DNA of 21,913 nucleotides, taken from the NCBI GenBank assembly GCA_025774865.1, contig JALGZO010000590.1, forward strand, positions 1-21,913, written 5' to 3'. Positions 3,496 to 21,913 of the stretch are shown here, piece by piece. Each line of letters starts with the position of its first letter. Position 1 is the first letter of the stretch. Under the pieces are notes generated by a model, which was not told the origin of the DNA, did no database searches, and saw nothing but the letters and a program-made list of their open reading frames with translations. The DNA comes from a bacterium (GTDB lineage: Bacteria; ARS69). Position numbers and translations under genes: made by a program.

Positions 3496-3510
3496 TGGCA
3501 CTTCCCTTGC
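3496..3510 (+). promoter_or_regulatory. Sigma-54 (-24/-12) promoter for fliP
   Basis: TGGCAC at 3496-3501 and TTGC at 3507-3510 give the exact GG-N10-GC spacing of RpoN promoters with a full match to the core elements. It lies in the only sizeable gap (187 bases) of the fliO-fliP junction, 46 bases before the fliP start, with a predicted transcript start near 3522. Sigma-54 control of export-gate and basal-body genes is known in many flagellated bacteria. Confidence 0.85.
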
Positions 3511-3555
3511 GTTACGCCAGGGCTCGCCGCGAAGTGGCGGGAGGGGGGGAAGGCC

Positions 3556-19447: not shown

Positions 19448-19651
19448 TCAGCCGGAGATCATGCGGGGCATCCACCAGGCCGAGGCGTACCCGTAATAGA
19501 GCAGCACAGCGAATCCGGTGAGGGCGATTCTTCGGAGCCAGGGGCGTCGGTCCATTTCACTTCCCTCGGTCCATCGTTTCCGGACCTCGCCACGCAGGAG
19601 CGACACGTCGCGAGGCCCGGCCATGGGCTCGACTTCGGTTTCTCCTGTCAT
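19448..19651 (-). CDS. Small single-pass membrane protein
   Basis: A 67-residue protein on the minus strand. The first 40 residues are charged (GEVRKRWTEGSE, then MDRRPWLRR), followed by one hydrophobic segment at about 46-63 (IALTGFAVLLYYGYASAWWM). This suggests a cytoplasmic N-terminus and a membrane-embedded end. Its ATG overlaps the stop of the 22-residue ORF as ATGA, with GGTGG just upstream, so the two are translationally coupled. I recognise no family. It is the second gene of a likely sigma-54 transcript that ends at the bidirectional terminator. Confidence 0.6.
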   Translation of the reverse strand: MTGETEVEPMAGPRDVSLLRGEVRKRWTEGSEMDRRPWLRRIALTGFAVLLYYGYASAWWMPRMISG

Positions 19652-19716
19652 CGGAGCCACCAAAAGAAGTCGAGAAACGAAGAGAAAATCCCGGCCAGCA
19701 GTACCAGCGATTTCAC
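19648..19716 (-). CDS. Tiny 22-residue membrane peptide
   Basis: A 22-residue ORF, almost entirely hydrophobic: one basic residue near the start, then SLVLLAGIFSSFLDFFWWLR. It is long enough for a single membrane helix. Evidence for translation is unusually good for its size: AGGAGG at 19723-19728 lies 6 bases before the GTG, its stop overlaps the next start as ATGA, and a sigma-54 promoter lies upstream. It could also act as a leader peptide for the 67-residue protein. No known small-protein family is recognised. Confidence 0.55.
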   Translation of the reverse strand: MKSLVLLAGIFSSFLDFFWWLR

Positions 19717-19761
19717 GTGTCTCCTCCTTGCGCCTTTCGCGAGGTGACTGACCCCTGACTG

Positions 19762-19777
19762 TGCATAGCCGGTGCCA
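19762..19777 (-). promoter_or_regulatory. Sigma-54 promoter for the small membrane-protein genes
   Basis: On the minus strand TGGCACC (19777-19771), four bases, then ATGCA (19766-19762), with GG and GC exactly 10 bases apart. The -24 element matches six of seven consensus bases and the -12 element four of five. The predicted start near 19751 leaves about 35 bases before the GTG at 19716. Confidence 0.75.
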
Positions 19778-19944: not shown

Positions 19945-21913
19945 TCAGATGGCGGGATCCTCGGCGGTCACCGGCCCGCCCGCGGGGAGGAACTTCGCGA
20001 CGAGGATCGTCAGGTCGTCGGGCAGGGAGCCCCCGACGAAGGTCTCCACGGCGGAGACGATGCTCTCGATGACCGCGCCGCCCGAGAGGTGGGCGAGGCG
20101 CGGAACGAGCGCCTCGAGTCTGGAGCCGAACTCCTCGTCATCTTCGTTCAGGACGTCCGTGACTCCGTCACTGTAGAGAAGCAGCATGTCCCCGGGCTCG
20201 AACTGCTCGACGCCGGCCCGGTAATCCGCGGTGCTCTCGACGCCCAGGAGAATCCCACCAGTCTCGAGTCGCGTGAGGGTCCCGTCGCGGCGAACGACGA
20301 TCGCCGCCGGATGCCCGGCGTTCACGTAACGAAAGGTGCGATCGCTCGGGTCCAGGTGTCCGTACAGGAGACTCGCGAAGCTGCCCGGCTGCACATCGGC
20401 GCACAACCGCTCGTTGATCTTGCGCACGACGGGCTCCGGCCGGCTTTCCGGACACGCCTCGGCGCGGAGCGTCGCCTGCAGCCCCGACAGGATCAGCGCC
20501 GCCGGCACTCCCTTGCCCGAGACGTCCGCGACCGCGAGCCCGAGGCCGTTCGACCCGAGATCCAGGAAATCGTAGAAGTCGCCGCCGACCTGGCGGCAGG
20601 GACGAGTCATCGCGGCGATCTCGATGCCCTCGGGGCGGGGGACCTGGGACGGGAGGAGCGTTCTCTGAATCCGGCGCGCGACCGCGAGCTCCTCCTCCAG
20701 GCGACGCCGCTCGAGGGCCTCCTCGTACAGCCGTGAGCTCGACAGCGCCGTACCCGCTTGATCGCCGAGAGTCGCGAGCATCTCGAGGTCCTGAGCGCGG
20801 TAGCGATCGTCCGAGCGCTTCGGGCCGAGGAGCAGAATACCCTCGATCTCGCGCTCCCGCGGGAGCAGCACGATCACCGACGCACCGATCGCCGCGATCG
20901 TCTCCCGCTCCGCCTCAGAGAGGCGCTGGAGGTGATCGGCGTGATGGACCGCGTCGACCGGAATCGGCCCGTCGAACTCGCGCCACCAGGAACAGAGACC
21001 GGGCGAGGGACGGTAGGTCGGAAGGGGAAGCTCTTCCTCGCCGACGCCGCGCGTTTCGGTCAGCTGCAGGGGTCCACCGTCGGTCCCCGAACGCACGAAC
21101 AACGCCGCGCGGTCGACGTCGAGAACCTCGGGAAGCCGGTTCACGAGCAGACCCACGAGCTCGTCCCGTTCCATCATGGTGGCGAGGGCGTTCGAGAACG
21201 TCCGCAGGGTCCTACGGTAACTGTATCGCTCGCGGTAGAACGTGCGATCCACGAATTCCTGGATCCGATCCCGGGCTGGCACGAAGAGGAGCGCCGCCGC
21301 GAACACGACCGTGAACGAGAGCACCGTTCGGCCGGTGCCCGTGCGCTCGACGATCCATGCTCCCAGGACTTCGGCCACGAGGTAGTAGACGGTCACGAGC
21401 AGCGCGGTCAGCGCGGTGTAGACGACGCTCCGTTTCACGACCAGCTCGAGATCCATGAGGCCATACCGGAAGATCGCGTGCGCGAACGACAGCGGAACGA
21501 GGAGGAACGTGACGAACGCGTACCGGTCACCGGGGATCTCGATCGACGGATTGAGATTCAGGATCGCGGCCAAGACGAGAGGGGGGAGGATCCCGAGAGC
21601 AGTCCCCGGCAGTACCCAGCGAACGCTTCGCCGGAGAAGGGGAGAGGACATGTTGCGCACGCCGCGCAAGAACGTCCCGACCCCCGCCACGATCATCACG
21701 ACGAAAACGAGAGCCGTGATCTGCTCGAAGGCGAGAGCGGCCGGAGAGGCCGGCCGGCCTCCCAGCACCATCTCGACATCGAACCTCAGCGCCAACGGCA
21801 GCCCCACGATCGCGGGCAGGTAGAGCAACCACGCTGCCCGCGGCCTTCGCACGAGGAGCCGGGCTCGCTGGGGAAAGCAGAGGAAGAAGTGAAGCAGGAT
21901 CGAGGGAAGAAGC
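19945..21913 (-). CDS. Membrane-anchored GAF/SpoIIE-type serine phosphatase (5' end outside window)
   Basis: A minus-strand frame open to the window edge, at least 655 residues, so the start is missing. Numbered from the GTG codon at 21852, membrane segments lie at about 8-22, 43-62, 80-98, 112-128, 143-165 and 178-192. A GAF domain follows at about 225-372 and a coiled linker at 373-400. The SpoIIE/PP2C phosphatase (about 405-622) has VGGDFYDF at 422-429, VADVSGKGVPAAL at 441-453, VNAGHPAA at 510-517, LYSDGVTD at 559-566 and PDDLTIL at 611-617, including the metal-binding aspartates. Such RsbU-like enzymes dephosphorylate anti-sigma antagonists in partner switching, a known pathway; the target here is unknown. 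The sequence before that GTG (HFFLCFPQRARLL) also looks like coding membrane-protein sequence. Confidence 0.85.
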   Translation of the reverse strand, partial: LLPSILLHFFLCFPQRARLLVRRPRAAWLLYLPAIVGLPLALRFDVEMVLGGRPASPAALAFEQITALVFVVMIVAGVGTFLRGVRNMSSPLLRRSVRWVLPGTALGILPPLVLAAILNLNPSIEIPGDRYAFVTFLLVPLSFAHAIFRYGLMDLELVVKRSVVYTALTALLVTVYYLVAEVLGAWIVERTGTGRTVLSFTVVFAAALLFVPARDRIQEFVDRTFYRERYSYRRTLRTFSNALATMMERDELVGLLVNRLPEVLDVDRAALFVRSGTDGGPLQLTETRGVGEEELPLPTYRPSPGLCSWWREFDGPIPVDAVHHADHLQRLSEAERETIAAIGASVIVLLPREREIEGILLLGPKRSDDRYRAQDLEMLATLGDQAGTALSSSRLYEEALERRRLEEELAVARRIQRTLLPSQVPRPEGIEIAAMTRPCRQVGGDFYDFLDLGSNGLGLAVADVSGKGVPAALILSGLQATLRAEACPESRPEPVVRKINERLCADVQPGSFASLLYGHLDPSDRTFRYVNAGHPAAIVVRRDGTLTRLETGGILLGVESTADYRAGVEQFEPGDMLLLYSDGVTDVLNEDDEEFGSRLEALVPRLAHLSGGAVIESIVSAVETFVGGSLPDDLTILVAKFLPAGGPVTAEDPAI

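Follow-up and report, generated by a model that had tools for sequence, protein, structure and literature searches.

The window analysed here (21,913 nt) makes up contig G000:C594 in a metagenome-assembled genome of 4.7 Mb, and its minus strand carries a real bicistronic microprotein operon. Read from its sequence, the unit consists of ORF1 (22 aa), a spacer of ~90 nt, ORF2 (35 aa), and a terminator, which would be transcribed together, under sigma-54 control, as a self-contained bicistronic unit of ~390 nt. An initial sequence-only reading had proposed that a sigma-54 promoter drives two very small membrane proteins of a size that annotation tends to overlook. Conservation across three genera bears this out, with the second protein having originally been mis-bounded. 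We consider it probable (roughly 0.6) that the locus encodes two single-pass membrane microproteins under enhancer-dependent activation, and that the pair serves a neighbouring membrane machine, either as small accessory subunits or as its regulators.

The orthologous loci belong to two other genera of the same family, represented by genomes G002 (contig JALGZR010000007.1) and G004 (BQJX01000035.1). Promoter, ORF1, ORF2, and terminator occur in identical order in the window and both relatives, and a conserved block upstream of the promoter is kept too. Orthologues in these other metagenome-assembled genomes rule out an assembly artefact of a single organism. Both ORFs are constant in length (22 and 35 aa) across the three genera, and the spacer between them contains indels and stops. 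This conservation shows both ORFs to be coding; the evidence is good but not overwhelming, as all conservation figures rest on three sequences from a single family of a single phylum.

ORF1 (MKSLVLLAGIFSSFLDFFWWLR; 19716-19648, minus strand, stop included) was recovered as proposed. It begins at a GTG codon behind the ribosome site AAGGAGGAG, and its syntenic orthologues in G002 and G004 (MRALVLGGLWTLCFLDFFWWLR and MRWHLLAAMTLLALFDFFWWMR) have exactly the same length. In-frame conservation was evaluated in a three-way alignment, where protein similarity exceeded all 2000 column shuffles (z 4.2) and was the best of the six frames. Pairs for which dN and dS were both estimable gave dN/dS values of ~0.35-0.58, only moderately below 1. 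The peptide has a single hydrophobic segment and a conserved C-terminus, DFFWW-x-R. This end, which we term an interfacial motif (LDFFWWLR), is much better conserved among the three genera than the middle of ORF1.

The second ORF had been read as a 67-residue protein overlapping, and coupled to, ORF1 through an ATGA. The relatives interrupt this frame and we rejected it. Orthologues in G002 and G004 (61% and 52% identity) align fully only over the last 35 residues, and the frame opened by the ATGA closes after 13 and 17 codons, respectively. Stops or frameshifts in close relatives, which had been named as grounds for refutation if they hit both ORFs, do break the 32 additional N-terminal codons, which are also unconserved, but leave ORF1 and the 35-residue core intact. 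In both relatives the core has its own ATG after a GAGG(G/A)A ribosome site, and the window has an equivalent internal start (GAGGGAAGTGAA-ATG) at 19555. ORF2 is therefore assigned as MDRRPWLRRIALTGFAVLLYYGYASAWWMPRMISG (19555-19448, minus strand, stop included), with 35-aa orthologues MSPRPWILRIVLTAFAALLYYGAFAHWWLPRTISG and MFQSPWMNRVALTIFAAALYWGVAAQWWVPRTIPG. Because the conserved ORF2 starts downstream at this ATG, behind a separate ribosome site, no significance attaches to the ATGA overlap; it is just the Arg-stop end of ORF1 (CGA/AGA TGA).

Conservation of ORF2 is stronger in the same alignment (z 6.8, above all 2000 column shuffles and best of six frames), with dN/dS values of ~0.27-0.33 for the pairs in which both rates were estimable. 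AlphaFold2 predicts one helix spanning residues 5-28 (mean pLDDT 78). The helix follows a positively charged N-terminus and precedes a WWxPRxIxG tail. By hydropathy, ORF1 and ORF2 are both hydrophobic enough for a single membrane pass, and we predict that both are single-pass inner-membrane microproteins.

The sigma-54 promoter that had been proposed upstream of ORF1 lies at 19777-19762 on the minus strand (TGGCAC-CGGCT-ATGCA; TGGCACCGGCTATGCA), 45 nt before the ORF1 start. Its -24/-12 element follows the GG-N10-GC pattern at a suitable distance and has one mismatch to TGGCACN5TTGCA. The form TGGCACN5ATGCA occurs at the same place, 44-52 nt upstream of ORF1, in all three genera. By itself the pattern is not enriched genome-wide (4 hits versus 4 for the control), and so it is this positional conservation that constitutes the promoter evidence. 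Type IV pilin genes are a textbook target of sigma-54. The pilA genes of three genomes in the phylum (L053 in G000, L051 in G004, and L055 in G003) have promoters of the form TGGCACG-N2-CCATGCA, so ATGCA can credibly serve as a -12 element in these bacteria. These promoter sequences suggest that the phylum prefers ATGCA over TTGCA at this position. All five genomes of the phylum encode RpoN and give hits to the AAA+ activator family (range 19-34; at least 25 in four genomes and 19 in the fifth). Elsewhere in the host genome (L048; G000:C260, ~10000), another exact TGGCACN5ATGCA site lies downstream of a perfect palindrome, TGCGAAT-GTC-ATTCGCA; the contig end truncates the gene it targets.

Gap-free comparison of the three loci, anchored at the -24 element, revealed a single outstanding block further upstream. 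This 16-mer, GTGAA-N3-A-N3-ACTT, sits 98, 98, and 99 nt upstream of the -24 element in the three genomes, within the ~80-150 nt at which a putative enhancer site of a sigma-54 unit is sought. Eleven of its 16 columns are identical across the genera, a count that none of 1000 shuffles equalled (maximum 9). In the window the block is part of a perfect inverted repeat, AAGTGA-ATGAAA-TCACTT (19877-19860, minus strand), the only zero-mismatch copy of AAGTGA-N6-TCACTT in the genome. Its spacing and form match an enhancer of a sigma-54 activator, and the block is probably an activator-binding site, that is, an upstream activating sequence. One gene considered as a dedicated activator encodes a REC-AAA-Fis protein and is found on the same strand, 6-7 kb upstream of the phosphatase gene that neighbours the pair in G002 and G004 (L072:10181-11458 (-); G002:C15:40650-41909 (+)). 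Orthologues of this gene are found in every one of the five genomes, including those that lack the pair, so it is not specific and was rejected for this role.

Downstream of ORF2, the strong terminator noted in the sequence-only reading was confirmed at ~19387-19356 on the minus strand (GAGGCCTCCCCACCTGTGGGGAGGCTTTTTC), a hairpin followed by a U-run (z -3.96). It is shared by the microprotein unit and the convergent M28 peptidase gene, and similar terminators recur in G002 and G004.

The spacer between the ORFs measures ~90-105 nt in the three genera and contains a stem-loop in each (3/3), beginning ~25-35 nt past the ORF1 stop, opening with (C)CGGGCCTCG(T/C)G, and including some compensated pairs. 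In the window it comprises CCGGGCCTCGC...GCGAGGTCCGG (19620-19580, minus strand; tentative). Its folding energy is ordinary relative to composition shuffles in all three genera (z -1.7, +1.2, and -0.6). For this reason we grade the hairpin as suggestive only and, despite the recurrence of the stem, do not for now accept it as a proven RNA element. The loops (CUCCU, UCCUCC, and CUUCU) are pyrimidine-rich and could pair with the ORF1 ribosome site; self-regulation through such pairing is possible.

These features bear on whether ORF1 could instead be a leader peptide, with its DFFWW-x-R-stop end stalling ribosomes, the hairpin controlling ORF2, and ORF2 being the only functional protein. The Phe/Trp-rich or arrest-like C-terminus of ORF1 is indeed far better kept than its middle, the stem-loop follows ~30 nt past its stop in three genera, and the loop has its potential partner in the ORF1 ribosome site. 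Against this, no terminator-like U-run follows the stem, the stem leaves the ORF2 ribosome site uncovered, and neither an alternative terminator nor ribosome-site sequestration, as expected downstream of an attenuator peptide, was found at the locus. The hairpin is also no more stable than shuffles, the retained hydrophobic N-terminal half of ORF1 is unneeded by a leader, and such control of a 35-aa peptide would be unusual. We therefore regard a leader function as unlikely. It is more doubtful still that the unit chiefly yields a small regulatory RNA dependent on sigma-54, with the ORFs secondary or dual-function. The short stand-alone unit with its terminator, and the conserved intercistronic stem with its CUCCU/UCCUCC loop, would suit such an RNA. 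Conservation is nonetheless concentrated at the amino-acid level in two frames, the spacer is the least length-constrained part of the unit, and Rfam returned no match.

Family searches place the pair outside described families. No credible match to either ORF was found in Pfam, NCBIfam, PDB, or Rfam. With Pfam and NCBIfam thresholds relaxed to E values of up to 10, PspB, PspC, PspD, and PspG were not matched and the sole hit was a chance match to DUF748; likewise, no KdpF- or CydX-type family model in these databases matched. A survey of 386 genomes spread over the domain yielded no convincing further homologue. Matches of the 67-aa query in other phyla were low-scoring, partial, and inside other frames, and the surroundings of the top such match in one search (L011) are unlike the microprotein locus; we discarded these. 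ORF1 and ORF2 are a pair of new protein families, although their general kind is known.

In size and hydrophobicity, ORF1 broadly resembles type I toxin peptides. A toxin-like pair would depolarise the inner membrane on firing of the promoter, lower the proton motive force, and stop motility, and the stand-alone transcript with strong structure is also reminiscent of such systems. We nevertheless consider this reading improbable. The locus is present once, at a syntenic position that three genera have kept, it encodes two different ORFs under sigma-54 control, a promoter scan found no sigma-70-like antisense promoter, and the family searches found no match.

For the preferred reading, of a regulatory or accessory membrane pair, genomic context supplies the candidate partners. 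The upstream neighbour in the window is a membrane GAF-SpoIIE/PP2C phosphatase gene (19945-21852, minus strand) with its N-terminus cut by the contig end. Orthologues in the relatives (one at L071:10587-13100 (+)) are 835-837 aa long. The phosphatase comprises a weak PDZ-like region, a hydrophobic middle, a GAF domain, and a SpoIIE/PP2C domain. The pair sits just downstream of this gene in all three genomes (3/3). It is present in G000, G002, and G004 and absent from G001 (67% complete) and G003 (100%); among these five, a close orthologue of the phosphatase (64-68%) and the flagellar export protein FlhA are likewise confined to the three genomes with the pair. The order in G000 and G002 is fliM-fliN, peptidase, FN3 lipoprotein, and M28 peptidase, followed by the convergent pair and phosphatase (gene names in the G002 block were assigned by eye from similarity to the window ORFs). 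The pair thus lies beside fliM-fliN in two genomes; in G004 the contig stops short of any flagellar gene. With five genomes, of which one is 67% complete, the evidence from co-occurrence is weak and may simply reflect the synteny block.

Upstream of fliP, all three flagellated genomes keep a further sigma-54-like site (window 3496-3511 (+), L093:13724, and L095:1224; TGGCACTTCCCTTGCG and similar), so sigma-54 probably controls part of the flagellar cluster. The fliP upstream region differs from that of the microprotein pair.

Our data suggest a model in which a bacterial enhancer-binding protein binds the palindrome ~98 nt upstream, loops onto sigma-54 polymerase at the -24/-12 element, and switches on both peptides together. 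The short mRNA would end at the bidirectional terminator and encode the two peptides, each with its own ribosome-binding site. Both peptides would enter the inner membrane, where they may attach to a larger membrane complex encoded nearby and adjust its activity. Joint action is most likely, since the two are always co-encoded, both carry Trp pairs at the membrane edge, and ORF1 retains an Asp where its helix ends. Candidate targets are the SpoIIE-type membrane phosphatase, which is always adjacent, and the flagellar motor or export gate, encoded in the same genomes and, in two of them, in the same block. The stator, export gate, and phosphatase suggested earlier are compatible with this synteny and co-occurrence. 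More tentatively, the two peptides could form a new paired-microprotein family, a heteromeric two-helix module that regulates flagellar motor activity or the adjacent membrane phosphatase in response to a signal gated by the enhancer. Such a module would be a membrane switch built from two peptides, one of them only 22 residues long.

Annotation pipelines normally pass over genes as short as 22 and 35 codons. A conserved and dedicated operon that contains nothing else, and that is controlled by an enhancer, therefore illustrates what gene prediction overlooks in phyla without cultured members. Should the peptides prove to modulate the flagellum or a membrane phosphatase, few control elements would be as compact, and their conserved residues make the role directly testable.

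Tiny membrane peptides of known systems offer partial parallels. KdpF and CydX are single-helix peptides of ~30 residues that stabilise a large membrane enzyme. The pair resembles them in length and predicted single-helix form but lacks a family match, shares no operon with an enzyme of that type, and has its own sigma-54 promoter. In the Rhodobacter puf operon, tiny Trp-containing membrane peptides of one helix each are encoded in tandem, with a hairpin between the cistrons, an arrangement shared by our locus. Unlike puf, the pair has no conserved histidine, no accompanying photosynthesis genes, and an unrelated sequence, and its hairpin is not significant by energy.

In terms of control, the closest comparison is Escherichia coli PspG, a sigma-54/PspF-driven membrane effector whose overproduction lowers motility (PMC2763126). 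The pair differs from PspG and the Psp systems in having no sequence match, far smaller peptides, two peptides per unit, a different enhancer site, and no psp genes seen nearby. With PspG and the other PspF-driven phage-shock proteins it would share control of a small membrane effector by sigma-54 and an enhancer-binding protein, a precedent by analogy of control and size class rather than of sequence.
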